Below, piece after piece: positions 34,153 to 43,661 of a DNA stretch of 64,000 nt (the stretch's first letter is position 1; each line of letters begins with the position of its first letter). This DNA comes from Acidimicrobiales bacterium (GTDB lineage Bacteria; Actinomycetota; Acidimicrobiia; Acidimicrobiales; JAHWLA01). A program made the translations under genes and the position numbers. Below the pieces are notes generated by a model. That model was not told the DNA's origin, made no database searches, and saw only the letters and a list, made by a program, of their open reading frames with translations. The DNA is taken from assembly GCA_035536915.1 (NCBI GenBank), contig DATLNE010000044.1, positions 248,001-312,000 of the forward strand. The letters run 5' to 3'.

Positions 34153-34167
34153 GGTTACAGTGGGTTA
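34153..34167. promoter_or_regulatory. Distant half-site similar to the AlbA_2 operator
   Basis: GGTTACAGTGGGTTA matches 13 of 15 positions of the half-site TGTTACAGTAGGTTA from the operator at 35575-35605. It overlaps the stop codon of the AlbA_2 gene. A further GTTACAG lies at 34141-34147. This may be a second binding site or a remnant from the origin of the cassette. Confidence 0.4.
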
Positions 34168-35574
34168 CTCACTGTGGAGCCGCCACACTGCTCGGGGGTC
34201 CTTCGGGCTCTGTCCGACCCAGTCGATCAACCCGGCGTCGCGAAGCTGGTAGAGCCGTCGCAGCGTGGCCGGTCGTCCCATGCCGATCGTGTCGGCGATG
34301 TCACCCGTGCTGATGGCGCCGGCATTGCGGATGAGTTCCATGATGTCGCGCGACCGGCTCGGCAGGCGGGCCCCCAACTCGGGGCTCAACGGGGTGGCTG
34401 CCAGCACGAGCCGCACGCTGCCAGGCGTCTGTGTGTAGACGGGGTCGCCGAGGCCGGCCGTGCGCATCTCGTCGAACATGCGCCGGATGCCTTCACCCAA
34501 CTCCTGTCCGAAGTCGAGGTCGGCGCACACCCGGGCGATGCGCGGGTTTCGGGAGAAGCGGCGCACGCGCCGGGGGTCCTCCACCACGCCGGGGAACCGT
34601 CCCGGGCTTTCGATCTCGATGCGGTTGTCGTAGACCTCCACCCGGATGTGGTCGCCGCCGAGGCTGTAGGAGCGGTGGATGACGGCGTTGACCACGCCCT
34701 CCAGCCAGGCGTCGCGCGGGATCAGGCCTTCGCGCACGAACCGGCCGTCGGGGCCCAGCACCCGGCGGGACGGCGCCAGCCGAGCGACCTCCTGTTCGAC
34801 GTCGCGCATCACCTCGGGGATGGGGCCTTCGCAGCGCACGTCGACCTGCAGGTTCTGGCGACGCCCGGTCGTGCGCTCGACGCCTTCGTAGCGGAGCACG
34901 CGCACGTAGGCCTCGGGGAAGTGGTCCTGGGGGTGGCGTCCGAACAGGAGATAGCCGGCAGCGGAGAGCCGCTCGTCGGCCGTGAGCAACATGCGAGCTT
35001 GCAGCGTCCGCTCCACGTCGGTGCCACCGACTCGCCTGAGGTACTCGGCCACGACATCGGGGTTCAGGTCGCCCAGCGTGGCGTCCGCCACCGGTGTCCC
35101 GTCGAAGTGCGCCTGCCCCTTGTCGAAGGTGAGCTCCTGGCGCTCTCGGAAACGCAGGCGCTTGTTCTCGTCACCGACCCGCAGATAGCAGTCGTCGGCT
35201 TTGGTGCAGTGCACGACGTCGCTCGGCGGCACGTCGATCACCAGTAGGTGGTCGGGCTCGCCCCGATGGTTGGTGCACGTGACCAAGCGGTGGCGGGAAC
35301 GAACCGGGGGCTCGCAGTGGTCGATGGCGGCCTGGACAAGGTCGTTGCGGTGAGCCGGGAAGTCGTCGGTCCCTTCGATCCTGCCGTCGTCGATGCCGAG
35401 GACGACCGTGCCGCCTTCGGCGTTGGCGAAGGCGACCAGGTTCTGGGCGAGCTTGAGCGGCGCGATGCGGGCGCTCTTCCGGTCGAACCACTGGTCTTCC
35501 GCTATGGCGACCAGCGCCAGGCCCACTTCGTCGGGCGGCAGTTCGACGGCGTGCAGGGCTGTCGACTTGAACAC
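34165..35574 (-). CDS. Schlafen AlbA_2 / RecG-like regulator with C-terminal winged helix
   Basis: 469 residues from GTG 35574. Residues ~10-150 are an AlbA_2 (Slfn) domain: AIAEDQWFDRKSARIAPLKL and LVAFANAEGGTVVLGIDDG. Residues ~270-370 match the HATPase-like C-terminal domain of this family: LEGVVNAVIHRSYSLGGDHI and IEIESPGRFPGVV. Residues ~415-465 form a winged helix (DIMELIRNAGAISTGDIADT). Such proteins are annotated as transcriptional regulators or RecG-related ATP-dependent proteins; some sit in defence loci. A 31-bp palindrome covers the promoter and ends at the start codon, indicating autoregulation. AT-rich flanks suggest a separately acquired gene. Confidence 0.8.
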   Translation of the reverse strand: MFKSTALHAVELPPDEVGLALVAIAEDQWFDRKSARIAPLKLAQNLVAFANAEGGTVVLGIDDGRIEGTDDFPAHRNDLVQAAIDHCEPPVRSRHRLVTCTNHRGEPDHLLVIDVPPSDVVHCTKADDCYLRVGDENKRLRFRERQELTFDKGQAHFDGTPVADATLGDLNPDVVAEYLRRVGGTDVERTLQARMLLTADERLSAAGYLLFGRHPQDHFPEAYVRVLRYEGVERTTGRRQNLQVDVRCEGPIPEVMRDVEQEVARLAPSRRVLGPDGRFVREGLIPRDAWLEGVVNAVIHRSYSLGGDHIRVEVYDNRIEIESPGRFPGVVEDPRRVRRFSRNPRIARVCADLDFGQELGEGIRRMFDEMRTAGLGDPVYTQTPGSVRLVLAATPLSPELGARLPSRSRDIMELIRNAGAISTGDIADTIGMGRPATLRRLYQLRDAGLIDWVGQSPKDPRAVWRLHSE

Positions 35575-35605
35575 TAACCTACTGTAACATTGTTATAGTA
35601 GGTTA
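35575..35605 (-). promoter_or_regulatory. 31-bp palindromic operator and leaderless promoter of the AlbA_2 gene
   Basis: A palindrome centred on T35590 with 15-bp arms and a single mismatched pair (35584/35596). On the minus strand it contains TACAGT (35586-35581) as -10, 6 nt before GTG 35574. A protein bound here would block the promoter. The centre is AT-rich in an otherwise GC-rich region. Confidence 0.75.
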
Positions 35606-35633
35606 GAGAAGGGACGATCCCGGCTTCCTGACT

Positions 35634-38802: not shown

Positions 38803-41574
38803 ATGCCGTTTCCTGCACCGGCCGAGCTCGGACGAGGCGCCATCGTGCTGCCCAGCCGTGCCGCGCCCGCCGGGTCCGAGGGGTGGCCGGTGGTCGAGGT
38901 GGCGGGCGTCGAGGCGGTCGACGTCCTCCACGGGCACTGGCTGCGGCGGGAACCGGTGGTCGTGGTGCTGGCGGTCGACCCCGGGTGGCTGCGGGAGCCC
39001 GAGGTCGACAACCGGGAGCCGTGGGAGCTCGACGTGGGCTTCGAGTTCCGCCGGGAGCGCCTGCAGTTCCTGGTGTGGATGAACAACTGGGACTGCCGGG
39101 GCGACGAGCCGGTGTGGTGGTGGGCCCGCAAGGCGGAGCGGTTAGGGGCCACGGTGGGCGGGCCTGCCGACGTGGTGTTGCCCGACGGCACCCCGGTGTG
39201 GATTGACGGCGGGCCTCGCCAGCCCCTGCCGCTCGACATCGTGCATCGGGAGTCGGTCGACCTGGGGCGCCTGACAGTCGCCCGGTGGCAGGCATCGGCC
39301 GCCGAACTGGCGCCCGACCAACAGGCGGCGGTGGCGCACGGGGTAGGGCCGGCCCGTGTCATCGCCCCGGCGGGATCGGGCAAGACCCGGGTGCTGACCG
39401 AGCGCCTGCGCCACCTCCTTGGCGACCGCGGGTGGGAGCCCGAGACGGTGGCGGCCGTGGCCTACAACAAGCGGGCGGCCGACGAGATGGCCGAGCGGGT
39501 GGTCGGCGTGCCGGCCCGGGTGCGCACCTTGAACTCGCTGGGGTTGGCCTTGTGCAACGGCACCGGCGGCTTCCGGCGCCCGGCCGGGCGGGCTCGCCGG
39601 GAGGTGGTCGAAGAGGTCGCCGTCCGCCAGTTGATCGACCAGCTCATCGAGCTTCGGCGGGCGCCCAACACCGACCCCTACGTGGCCTACCTGGAAGGGC
39701 TGCAGGCCATACGCATGGGGCTGCGCGACCCGGCCGAGGTCGAGGTGGCCCTCGACGCCCCCGGCTTGGCCGACCTGTTCGAGCGCTACTGCCGCCTGCT
39801 CGACGACAAGGCGCTGATCGACTTCGACGGCCAGCTGTACGAAGCGTTGCGGGTCTTGCTCACCGACCCCGCCGCTCGGGGGGTGGCCCAGAAGCTGTCG
39901 CAGCACCTGCTGGTCGACGAGTTCCAAGACCTCACGCCGGCGCACCTGTTACTGCTGCGCCTGCTGGCCGCGCCCGCCTACGACGTGTTCGGCGTGGGCG
40001 ACGACGACCAGGTCATCTACGGCTTCAGCGGGGCGTCGCCCGAGTACCTCATCGAGTTCGACCGGTTCTTCCCTGGTGCCTCGAAGTACGCGCTGGAGGT
40101 CAACTACCGCTGCCCGCCTGCGGTGGTGGGGGCGGCCACCACGCTGTTGTCGTACACGCCGCGACGCATCGCCAAGGAGATCCGGCCCGCGCCGGGGCGC
40201 GAGCCGGTCGACGGCGAGTTGGTGGTGCAGCGGGTGGCCGACGTGGAAGAGGCAGCGACGACGGCCGACGTCCTCAGCGGGTGGCACGACGAGGGGGTGC
40301 CGTGGTCGTCGACGGCGGCGTTGGCCCGGGTGAACTCGGCCTTGTTGCCGCTGCAGCTGACCTTGGTGGAGCGGGCCATCCCCAGTCGCCGGCCCATCGA
40401 CGTCAACATCCTGTCGCGCACGGGCATCCGGGCGGCATTGGCCTACCTGCGCATCGGGCTCGACCCCGGTCGCATCGCTATCGCCGACGTGACCGAGACC
40501 ATCCGGCGCCCGTCGCGGCGCATCTCCCGCAAGGTGGTCGAGATGCTCGGCCGGTCGCGCACGACCAGCGTGTCCGACGTGCGCCGGCTGGCCGGGCGGT
40601 TGTCGGGGGGCGACGTGGCCAAATTGGAGGCCTACGCCGCCGACATCGACCGGGTGGTGCGAGCGGTGGAGACGGGCGACGTGCGGGCAGTGCTGCGCAC
40701 GATCCGCGTCGACATCGGGCTGGGCTCGGCCATGGATGTGCTCGACGGCGTGCGCCGCGAGGCCGACCGCTCCACCCACGCCGACGACCTGGTGGCCTTG
40801 GAGCAGGCCGCCGCGCTGCACCCCGAGCCGGAGACGTTCGAGCGCTGGCTGCGGGGCGTGCTGTCGACGCCTCGTTCCGACGAGCCCGGCGTGGAGCTGT
40901 CGACCATCCATCGGGTCAAAGGCCGGGAGTGGGACAACGTGGTGGTGTTCGGGGTGCGCGACGACTTGCTCCCGCACCGGCTGGCGAGCGACGAGGCCGA
41001 GGAGCGCCGCTTGCTGCACGTGGCCATCACCCGGGGGCGCCGCCGGGTGGTGGTGGTGGCCGACCAGGCGGCGCCGTCGCCGTTCCTCGACGAGCTGGCG
41101 GGCACCCGGTCGCACGACGAGGTGCGGCCGGTGCGGGTGCGGGCCACGGCCGCGTCGGCGGCGTCGGCCCGAGCGGCGCCGACCGTGGCCGCCGAAGTCG
41201 GGCTCGAGGTCGGGATCGGCGGCTTCGAGGGCGTCGTCGTCGAGGTGGGGGAGACCGGGGTGCTGGTGTCGGTGGGACGCGCCCGCATGTCGGCGGCCTA
41301 CGGCAGCGAGGTGCGCATCGCGGGCCGCGCCCTGCGGCTGGTGCGGCCGGGCGACGAGCGCTTGGTCGAGGCGCTCAAGGCCTGGCGGCGGGAGACGGCG
41401 ATGCGCGACAAGGTGCCCGCCTACGTCGTGTTGAGCGACAAGGACGTCGAGAGCATCGCCGAGCGGGCGCCCCGCTCACTGGCAGAACTGGCCGCCTGCC
41501 GGGGCATCGGCGCCACCCGCCTGGAACGCTACGGCGACGAGCTGCTCGCCGTCATCGAGGGGGTGGTCGCCTGA
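38803..41574 (+). CDS. UvrD/Rep-family DNA helicase with C-terminal HRDC domain
   Basis: 923 residues. Residues 1-~165 form an extra N-terminal region of unknown fold, Trp-rich (FLVWMNNWDCRGDEPVWWWA). SF1A helicase motifs follow: Q-x-x-A and Walker A VIAPAGSGKTRVL (~189-196), VAYNKRAADEMAERV, Walker B LLVDEFQDLTP, motif III VGDDDQVIYGFSGA, motif IV LEVNYRCPPAV, motif V STIHRVKGREWDNVVVF and motif VI HVAITRGRRR. The last ~75 residues form an HRDC domain (WRRETAMRDKVPAYVVLSDK and LAACRGIGATRLERYGDELL). The arrangement resembles the actinobacterial UvrD2-like helicases. Likely role: DNA repair or replication-fork processing. Confidence 0.9.
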   Translation: MPFPAPAELGRGAIVLPSRAAPAGSEGWPVVEVAGVEAVDVLHGHWLRREPVVVVLAVDPGWLREPEVDNREPWELDVGFEFRRERLQFLVWMNNWDCRGDEPVWWWARKAERLGATVGGPADVVLPDGTPVWIDGGPRQPLPLDIVHRESVDLGRLTVARWQASAAELAPDQQAAVAHGVGPARVIAPAGSGKTRVLTERLRHLLGDRGWEPETVAAVAYNKRAADEMAERVVGVPARVRTLNSLGLALCNGTGGFRRPAGRARREVVEEVAVRQLIDQLIELRRAPNTDPYVAYLEGLQAIRMGLRDPAEVEVALDAPGLADLFERYCRLLDDKALIDFDGQLYEALRVLLTDPAARGVAQKLSQHLLVDEFQDLTPAHLLLLRLLAAPAYDVFGVGDDDQVIYGFSGASPEYLIEFDRFFPGASKYALEVNYRCPPAVVGAATTLLSYTPRRIAKEIRPAPGREPVDGELVVQRVADVEEAATTADVLSGWHDEGVPWSSTAALARVNSALLPLQLTLVERAIPSRRPIDVNILSRTGIRAALAYLRIGLDPGRIAIADVTETIRRPSRRISRKVVEMLGRSRTTSVSDVRRLAGRLSGGDVAKLEAYAADIDRVVRAVETGDVRAVLRTIRVDIGLGSAMDVLDGVRREADRSTHADDLVALEQAAALHPEPETFERWLRGVLSTPRSDEPGVELSTIHRVKGREWDNVVVFGVRDDLLPHRLASDEAEERRLLHVAITRGRRRVVVVADQAAPSPFLDELAGTRSHDEVRPVRVRATAASAASARAAPTVAAEVGLEVGIGGFEGVVVEVGETGVLVSVGRARMSAAYGSEVRIAGRALRLVRPGDERLVEALKAWRRETAMRDKVPAYVVLSDKDVESIAERAPRSLAELAACRGIGATRLERYGDELLAVIEGVVA

Positions 41575-42702
41575 TCAGCGAGACCACGCACTGACCAGTG
41601 CGATCAATTCGGGTGCCACCCACCACTTCCGAGGCCGGCCTCGGCCCTGGGCCACGCGGTCGAAGCGCTCGACGATCTCATAACGGGCCAGCGTCTCCAG
41701 GGCGGCCCGCCCGGCGCGCTCGCTGACATCCAGTGCGTCGGCCACCGTCGCCGCCCCCAGCACAGGATGTTGTGGGAGAAGGGAAAGCACCTGCCGGGCG
41801 GTGGCATCGGTGCGCACGTCGGTCAGTCGATCGGTCCACTGGGCCTGCAGCTCCTGCACGTCGTGGACGAGGTTGATCGACGCCTCGCCCGCGCCTCCGA
41901 CGACATCGGCGAACCAGGCGACCCATGGGTCCGCCTGCCCGAGGCGGAAGTGCGTCAGCCCGGCCAGGTACCCCCCTCGGTCGGTAGCAATGCGGACGCT
42001 CACGGGCGGCGGGGTCACCAGGCCCAGGCGACGGCTCAGGACCCAGCCCACCAACACGCGCCCCACGCGACCGTTGCCGTCGGCGTACGGGTGGATCACC
42101 TCGAACTGCGCATGGGCCACGGCCGCCTGCGTGACGGGGTCCACATCGGTGCGGTTCACGAACTCGACCAGGTCGGTGAGCAACCGCTCGACCGCATCGG
42201 GCGGCGGCGTCACCAGCGCGGCGTCGAGTGGGCTCGTGCCCCCGATCCACCCCTGCTCCTTACGGGGGGTCCCCACCAGGCGGGGGGGCAGGTGGCGTGT
42301 GCCCCGCATGATGAGCCCATGCCAGCGATGGAGGGAGCGCACCCGCAGCGGGCCTTCCTGGGCCTCGCCGACCGCCGACTGGACCGCTTTCAGGTTGTCG
42401 GCCACCCAGGCGGCGTGCTCACCGACGGCTGGATCGAGCTCGGCGACGGCCACGTCGACCAACGGCGCCCCGACGCCTTCGATGAACGAGGACGCCACGC
42501 CTTCGGTTCGGAGCAGGAGCCGTCCTAACGCCTCCCACTGGCGCGGGAGCTGGTCGTTGCTGCGACGGGCCAGGGCGGCAGCGCGTTCGGTCCCCCGCGT
42601 GGTGCGCTCGGTGAGCGACAGGTCGCGGGCGGCCAACAGATCGGGGACCCAAGCTCGTGCCCGGCGCCCGTTCCACAGGATCGGCACTTCGCGTCCGCCC
42701 AT
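41575..42702 (-). CDS. Fic-domain protein (class II) with C-terminal winged helix
   Basis: 375 residues. The Fic motif HPYADGNGRVGR (204-215) matches HxFx(D/E)GNGRxxR, so AMP- or other NMP-transfer to proteins is expected. The N-terminal inhibitory motif S-x-x-x-E-G is at 71-76 (Ser71, Glu75), typical of self-inhibited class II Fic proteins. The N-terminal Fic_N region is present. The last ~75 residues are a winged helix (ATVADALDVSERAGRAALET). It starts at ATG 42702 inside a perfect inverted repeat that frames its own promoter, so the protein probably regulates its own gene. Target protein unknown. Confidence 0.9.
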   Translation of the reverse strand: MGGREVPILWNGRRARAWVPDLLAARDLSLTERTTRGTERAAALARRSNDQLPRQWEALGRLLLRTEGVASSFIEGVGAPLVDVAVAELDPAVGEHAAWVADNLKAVQSAVGEAQEGPLRVRSLHRWHGLIMRGTRHLPPRLVGTPRKEQGWIGGTSPLDAALVTPPPDAVERLLTDLVEFVNRTDVDPVTQAAVAHAQFEVIHPYADGNGRVGRVLVGWVLSRRLGLVTPPPVSVRIATDRGGYLAGLTHFRLGQADPWVAWFADVVGGAGEASINLVHDVQELQAQWTDRLTDVRTDATARQVLSLLPQHPVLGAATVADALDVSERAGRAALETLARYEIVERFDRVAQGRGRPRKWWVAPELIALVSAWSR

Positions 42703-42738
42703 TTACGGAAGGATACCAGAACAGTCTTCCGTAAATGG
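42699..42738. promoter_or_regulatory. Perfect 13-bp inverted repeat framing the fic promoter
   Basis: CCATTTACGGAAG (42699-42711) and CTTCCGTAAATGG (42726-42738) are exact complements separated by 14 nt. The minus-strand -10 TATCCT (42715-42710) lies 7 nt before ATG 42702, at the inner edge of the left arm. A third, partial copy (TTTCGGAAGG, 42744-42753) lies just before the -10 of the divergent exonuclease gene. It is best read as an operator controlling both genes. Confidence 0.75.
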
Positions 42739-42757
42739 CACAGTTTCGGAAGGCGCC

Positions 42758-42763
42758 TACCGT
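42758..42763 (+). promoter_or_regulatory. Leaderless-type -10 (TACCGT) of the exonuclease gene
   Basis: TACCGT lies 7 nt before ATG 42771. This supports 42771 rather than the in-frame ATG at 42735, which lies inside the operator repeat. Confidence 0.5.
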
Positions 42764-42770
42764 GGCGGCA

Positions 42771-43661
42771 ATGCGTGTCCACTTGATCGACGGCACCTAC
42801 GAGCTGTTCCGCCACCACTTCGGCGCCCCGCCTGAAGTGCGGGAGAAGTCGACGGCGGCGGCCACCCGCGGCGTCGTCAACTCGGTGCTCACCCTGCTGG
42901 CCGAAGGCGCCTCCCACGTCGGCGTGGCCACCGACCAGGTCATCGAGTCGTTCCGCAACGACCTGTGGCCGGGCTACAAGAGCAGCGCGGGCATGCCCCC
43001 GGAACTGCTCGTCCAGTTCCCCCTCGTGGAGGAGGCGCTGGCCGCCCTCGGCGTCGCCGTGTGGCCCATGGTCGAGCTCGAAGCCGACGACGGCCTGGCG
43101 TCGGCCGCTGCCGTGGCCGCCGCCGACGACCGGGTGCTGCAAGCGGTGATCTGCACCCCCGACAAGGACCTGGGCCAGTGCGTGGTCGGCGACCGGGTCG
43201 TGCAACTCGACCGGCGCAAGAACGTCGTGTTCGACGAGGCGGGGATCGTCGCCAAGTTCGGGGTGCTGCCCACGTCGATCCCCGACTACCTGGCGCTGGT
43301 GGGCGACTCGGCCGACGGCTTCCCCGGCCTCAAGGGCTGGGGCGCCAAGGCCGCGGCGGCCGTCCTACGCCGCTACCCCCACATTGAGGACATCCCCCGC
43401 CTGGGGGAGCGCTGGGACCTCGACGTGCGGGGCTGCCGCACCCTCGCCAACACGCTGGCCGACCGGTACGACACAGCCTTGCTCTTCCGCGAGTTGGCCA
43501 CGCTGCGCATCGACCGCGACTGCGTCGGCACCGTCGACGACTGGCTGTGGCGCGGCCCGACGCCCGCCTTCCCCGAGGTGTGCGAGCGCATCGGCGCCAC
43601 ATTCCTGGTGGAACGTGCCGCCGACGTCCTCAGGCGAAAGCAGGCGGCAGCGGCAGGCTGA
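42771..43661 (+). CDS. Stand-alone 5'-3' exonuclease (flap endonuclease family)
   Basis: 296 residues, resembling the N-terminal nuclease domain of DNA polymerase I. Metal-binding acidic residues appear in [41 protein letters not shown] and [20 protein letters not shown], the last including the helix-3-turn region ([14 protein letters not shown]). [12 protein letters not shown] corresponds to the conserved Y-K-x-x-R arch region, with the Arg replaced. It removes 5' flaps or RNA primers. Its 3' end overlaps the convergent aat remnant by 32 bp. Confidence 0.87.

Follow-up and report, generated by a model that had tools for sequence, protein, structure and literature searches.

The window analyzed here, a 64,000-nucleotide stretch of an Acidimicrobiales genome, contains a fic gene (41575-42702, reverse strand) whose start is covered by an array of three alternating half-sites, A, B, and C. 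On sequence grounds, this array is very probably a private operator of the Fic protein, which would bind it through its own C-terminal winged helix and thereby regulate its own gene negatively.

The Fic protein and its winged helix

The gene encodes a class II Fic protein of 375 amino acids (PF02661, 1.1e-15). Its catalytic motif, H204-PYADGNGRVG-R215 (HPYADGNGRVGR; 42058-42093, reverse strand), follows the pattern HxFx(D/E)GNGRxxR with Y in place of F, and the residues H204, D208-R212, and R215 are invariant in alignment A1. N-terminal to it, at the end of helix 54-74, the sequence shows the motif S71SFIEG76 (42475-42492, reverse strand), which agrees with the inhibitory helix signature (S/T)xxxE(G/N) of class II proteins and in which S71, S72, and E75 are nearly invariant.

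The protein ends in a winged helix (residues 294-375; 41578-41823, reverse strand), as a previous sequence-only reading had recognized and as the AlphaFold model (mean pLDDT 91.7) and fold comparison now confirm. The C-terminal 82 residues also adopt this fold when modelled alone, and match both winged-helix regulators and the C-termini of the solved Fic structures 7cb8 and SoFic with Z about 9; the matches in Pfam are weak and sub-threshold. In the AlphaFold model, the recognition helix is the second helix of the HTH, comprising residues 328-340 (41683-41721, reverse strand) and starting with ERAGRAALETLA.

An array of half-sites over the fic start

The core of the array is an inverted repeat formed by a left arm, CCATTTACGGAAG (half-site C; 42699-42711, reverse strand), and a right arm, CTTCCGTAAATGG (half-site B; 42726-42738, forward strand), which are complementary in 13/13 positions across a 14-nt gap. 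The repeat is thus as perfect as first described. GC-rich DNA often contains short inverted repeats, and this sequence has several others, but none of 2000 dinucleotide shuffles of positions 42651-42800 produced a perfect inverted repeat of at least 13 bp, the shuffle maximum being 11. Together with the conservation in orthologues presented below, which contradicts it directly, this leaves a chance repeat with a negligible probability.

Within the span of the inverted repeat are the putative -10, the region around the start, and the ATG of fic. This ATG (complement of 42700-42702) lies within the left arm, immediately behind an in-frame TAA (42703-42705), and fic therefore has no start further upstream. 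The right arm also carries an ATG on the forward strand (42735), in the frame of the divergent exonuclease ORF.

A third copy had been noticed near the exonuclease promoter and considered partial. It is indeed present at 42744-42753 (TTTCGGAAGG) but, read as TTCCGAAA, it is a full half-site matching the consensus TTCCGWAA with no mismatch. This half-site A (TTTCGGAAG; 42744-42752, forward strand) is placed 17 bp start-to-start from its neighbor, half-site B, and has the opposite orientation. On the fic strand the whole array reads CTTCCGAAACTGTGCCATTTACGGAAGACTGTTCTGGTATCCTTCCGTAAATGG. The three half-sites alternate, with A and C pointing forward and B in reverse, and successive starts lie 17 and 24 bp apart. 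A fourth half-site, D, is known from several orthologues; in the window, the beginning of the fic coding sequence shows no recognizable copy of it.

A -10-like element, TATCCT (42710-42715, reverse strand), is located 7 nt upstream of the fic ATG and overlaps arm C. Its position is conserved: in 26 orthologous operators aligned by palindrome alone, the T and A of its TA occupy spacer bases 10 and 11 in 20 and 23 cases, respectively, and 14 of the 26 contain TANNNT at this fixed place. A strict sigma-70 scan returned no consensus promoter for fic, so the promoter assignment rests on the conserved position of the -10-like element, and the earlier description of the repeat as framing the fic core promoter stands in that form. 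With the element 7 nt from the ATG, transcription of fic is probably leaderless. In several relatives, the start codon of fic likewise touches arm C or lies partly within it.

The perfect complementarity of the arms could also reflect an RNA structure, such as a hairpin in the 5' leader or an attenuator. However, arm B precedes the putative -10 and would stay untranscribed, the ATG is contained within arm C, a search for a terminator-like site found none, and conservation follows the DNA spacing (17/24 bp) and the position of the -10 instead of a loop. A function at the RNA level is for these reasons extremely improbable.

Conservation of the array among Fic relatives

Relatives of the Fic protein were gathered by one scan of genome contigs and by searches at the level of class, phylum, and order. 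For the close subfamily, consisting of 26 non-redundant fic upstream regions, the best palindromes with 9-bp arms were summed for each inner gap. Palindromy is highest with inner gaps of 14 (z 9.5) and 16 (z 11.0), and is close to background or under it once the gap exceeds about 20-22. In a separate test using the best 10-bp arm, the z value was 13.8 for subfamily A and 9.7 for distant Fic genes; the promoters of exonuclease orthologues, taken as negative control, showed no palindromy (z 0.0). The repeat is hence present upstream of orthologous fic genes, the place where the sequence-only reading had proposed to look for it. The arms vary among relatives (TTACGGAAG, TTTCGGAAC, TAAGTTACC, TATCTTACC, TTTCGTACA, TTTGGAAAG, and others), yet they stay mutually complementary, which indicates a site for a symmetric protein. 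Under the scan used, no N14 operator was found in the relatives L119 and L039, and L117 was ambiguous.

The geometry of the array is conserved as well. Relatives with a SERxxR recognition helix (L031, L033, L035, L041, L044, L148, and L151) have half-sites at steps of 17/24 bp, and several relatives of this type hold a fourth half-site after a further 17 bp; half-site D is seen in L035, L044, L135, and L151, with steps of 16/24/17 in L135. The 17/24-bp array spans genera and is kept upstream of Fic genes that are only about 47% identical. Reduced versions are also found, with only the B-C pair in L030, L034, L142, and L144, or only the C-D pair in L026 and L133. In L004 and L130, which are 69% identical to the window Fic, there are only two copies, in the same orientation and 41 bp apart; as 41 bp is the sum of 17 and 24, these copies correspond to sites A and C.

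Covariation of recognition helix and half-site

Half-sites differ between Fic proteins in step with the recognition helix of each. When sites are chosen by their palindromes alone, distances between half-sites correlate with those between recognition helices in 23 sequences (r 0.47), and the correlation persists after removing Fic-domain distance, the only control for phylogeny in this test (partial Mantel, partial r 0.43, permutation p 6e-4, n=23). The value depends on the palindrome threshold, with r 0.26 at 6/9, 0.47 at 7, and 0.61 at 8, and with poor palindromes admitted the partial r is 0.25 (p 0.008, 33 sequences). An initial test on 15 sequences had given p 0.027, and the larger set strengthened it.

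In terms of sequence, SERxxR helices are found with CTTCCGWAA, R/K-K-A helices with GGTAAnnTA, and PLK helices with YGTACGAAA. L025 and L035 have helix type and site in common even though the proteins are only 48% identical, and in L005 (52% identical) both helix and site differ. L029 (55%) is a partial exception, in which the helix differs and the site, GTTCCGAAA, is close. Taken as a whole, this tracking of the recognition helix by the half-site suggests that the half-sites are read by the Fic protein itself.

The location of the array between two divergent genes, fic and an exonuclease of a family that works in DNA repair, could alternatively suggest the site of another, unlinked regulator (e.g., of stress or DNA repair) controlling both genes together. 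This is very unlikely, given that half-sites vary with each Fic's own recognition helix, that Fic genes with quite different neighbors retain the array, that the exonuclease orthologues are without the site, and that the half-site pair occurs exactly once in the genome.

Uniqueness of the predicted operator in the genome

Specificity was gauged by pattern searches of the genome together with the exonuclease-promoter control. The exact arm has a single location in the 3.23-Mb genome, with one copy containing 1 mismatch elsewhere. No second exact operator, understood as the half-site pair, was found in the pattern search of the 3.2-Mb genome, and matches with up to 3 mismatches showed no excess over a reversed-pattern control (14 vs 38). 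A regulon with operators at further genes was rejected on these counts, and the operator looks private to fic, the pair occurring once in the genome.

The exonuclease, the helicase, and the empty site

The fic gene is flanked by a divergent 5'-3' exonuclease (42771-43661, forward strand; PF02739, PF01367) and by a UvrD-like helicase assigned from its sequence (38803-41574, forward strand), whose stop codon abuts that of fic. In a same-genus genome (G395, locus L096), helicase and exonuclease are adjacent, with neither fic nor operator between them and with 57 nt separating the last aligned helicase position from the exonuclease ATG. The similarity between the window and this locus breaks off near the end of the helicase (41558) and returns precisely with the ATG of the exonuclease (42771). 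To judge from this alignment, fic and its operator represent either a gain at the window locus or a loss in the same-genus relative. Across the gene, fic has a GC content of 0.69-0.73, with no sign of recent foreign origin. The stop codons of helicase and fic are arranged tail to tail (TGATCA, 41572-41577), with the insertion boundary near the helicase stop.

The association with these neighbors is not general. A fic gene was found beside the exonuclease in 0/15 exonuclease relatives tested, and neither helicase nor exonuclease was beside fic at any of the other Fic loci examined. The third half-site is absent both from the same-genus empty site and from exonuclease orthologues lacking fic, and therefore belongs to fic. 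An origin specific to the exonuclease is ruled out by the same observations, and the former assignment of this copy to the exonuclease promoter has to be given up in favor of its membership in the fic array.

The exonuclease may still be co-regulated with fic, given the position of fic between exonuclease and helicase, although the exonuclease has no site of its own. Fic would then repress both genes from a shared divergent operator, the repair gene having been captured by fic. Such an arrangement is possible, if somewhat doubtful: fic separates two genes that are adjacent in the same-genus genome, half-site A is located just upstream of the putative exonuclease -10, and the right arm carries an ATG in the exonuclease reading frame, but the A-B-C array is also present at Fic loci without the exonuclease, so that control of the latter is not needed to explain it. 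The right-arm ATG follows an in-frame TAA and opens a stretch (42735-42770) in the same frame as the exonuclease. If this ATG is used, the insertion of fic may have given the exonuclease an N-terminal extension of 12 residues (MAQFRKAPTVAA).

Comparison with known systems

Most Fic proteins belong to class II, about whose functions and control little is known (PMC9755527). The sole relevant experimental case found in the literature on Fic proteins with a winged helix or a palindrome is CccR from Yersinia pseudotuberculosis, a class II Fic protein with a C-terminal HTH that represses its own gene (PMC9755527). CccR protects AGATAATCAT-N26-ATGATAATCT near its own -35/-10, its dimer-dependent autorepression was established by EMSA, DNase I footprinting, ITC, and reporters, and its regulatory and toxic activities are reported to be independent (PMC9755527). 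The window protein is likewise a class II Fic with a C-terminal DNA-binding domain, the winged helix 294-375, and both have a long inverted-repeat operator over their own -35/-10. The geometry is different: where CccR has one pair of boxes with N26 between them, the window has alternating half-sites at 17/24-bp steps with inner gaps of 9 and 14-16, and its half-site CTTCCGWAA overlaps the start codon. The structural match with 7xux, which is probably the structure of CccR, is moderate (Z 25.1, rmsd 3.5 over 300 residues, 16% identity). By analogy, the window system most likely works as CccR does, with a different operator geometry.

Over the full length, winged helix included, the closest solved structure is the Fic-domain protein 7cb8 from M. 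marinum, solved with CDP (Z 44.8, rmsd 2.0 over 365 residues, 29% identity); no report of an operator or of DNA binding was found for it in the literature searched. SoFic from Shewanella oneidensis (SO_4266; 3eqx, 3zcn) is also a full-length fold match (Z 37.8, rmsd 2.4, 20% identity), and 3eqx was deposited as a "Fic domain containing transcriptional regulator". However, the window Fic scores 65.5 against the cut-off of 550 of the NCBIfam SoFic equivalog NF046030, and is therefore not a SoFic orthologue.

In autoregulated type II toxin-antitoxin operons, a potentially toxic enzyme is kept low by the operon's own product, which binds an operator over the promoter. The fic locus is similar in that a potentially toxic enzyme would be held low through an operator over its promoter, but here a single gene is involved, with inhibitory helix and DNA-binding domain in one chain. 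No antitoxin ORF is adjacent to fic, which is flanked by the helicase and the exonuclease.

CccR is thus a precedent for a Fic protein with an autorepressing DNA-binding tail. The earlier idea of a DNA-binding tail paired with a long self-operator is well supported by orthologue conservation, fixed geometry, and helix covariation, and needs correction as to the third copy. As far as our searches reached, the geometry of the array, its clade-wide conservation, and the covariation of helix and operator are new.

Other candidate self-operators

The parallel drawn previously with an AlbA_2-type gene of the same window is upheld. This gene (34165-35574, reverse strand), encoding SLFN_AlbA_2, HATPase_c_4, and winged-helix domains, has a 10-bp inverted repeat, CTAACCTACT-N13-AGTAGGTTAG (35574-35606), exactly at its start, and appears to follow the same self-operator logic as fic with an unrelated repeat sequence.

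Candidate operators are also found at other Fic genes. The second Fic gene of the source genome (L092, contig C12 near 53056) has a quite different one, a 15-bp inverted repeat, CCTTGTTAAAGGTTA-N5-TAACCTTTAACAAGG, in its upstream region. A more distant Fic gene (L073, 1-501) is preceded by a perfect 21-bp inverted repeat, GGCTCCTCCTCTTATTCAAGG-N11-CCTTGAATAAGAGGAGGAGCC. Upstream of a Fic gene from Neolewinella (Bacteroidota; L024), 22-bp inverted-repeat arms composed of ATTAGTGACAC units are located 53-98 bases before the match at 2501, and self-operators of Fic proteins may consequently reach well beyond this phylum.

Proposed mechanism and implications

In the mechanism proposed here for Fic autoregulation, the protein, as a dimer or a higher oligomer, would use its C-terminal winged helix to bind the CTTCCGWAA half-sites, which overlie the -35 region, the -10, the putative transcription start, and the start codon. 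Fic seated on this operator would exclude the RNA polymerase, and the resulting negative feedback would hold the autoinhibited AMPylator at a low level.

A more far-reaching proposal, which we consider rather unlikely, is that in this actinobacterial class every Fic gene forms a mobile unit complete in itself, whose private operator has a fixed layout. Half-sites of alternating orientation, with a period of 41 bp or about four helical turns, would be read by a Fic oligomer of higher order. By assembling on the promoter, this oligomer would also gate the AMPylation active site, coupling the sensing of enzyme activity to that of gene dosage. Operator specificity would diverge along with the recognition helix, avoiding cross-talk between paralogues in one cell.

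The survey takes Fic autorepression from one isolated case, CccR, to a general rule that can be tested across a large clade. This rule covers where the operator lies, how it is spaced, and, in crude form, the code by which it is recognized, and makes the operators of uncharacterized Fic proteins predictable. It also suggests that Fic units consisting of a single gene could move between genomes, since their own off-switch travels along with them.
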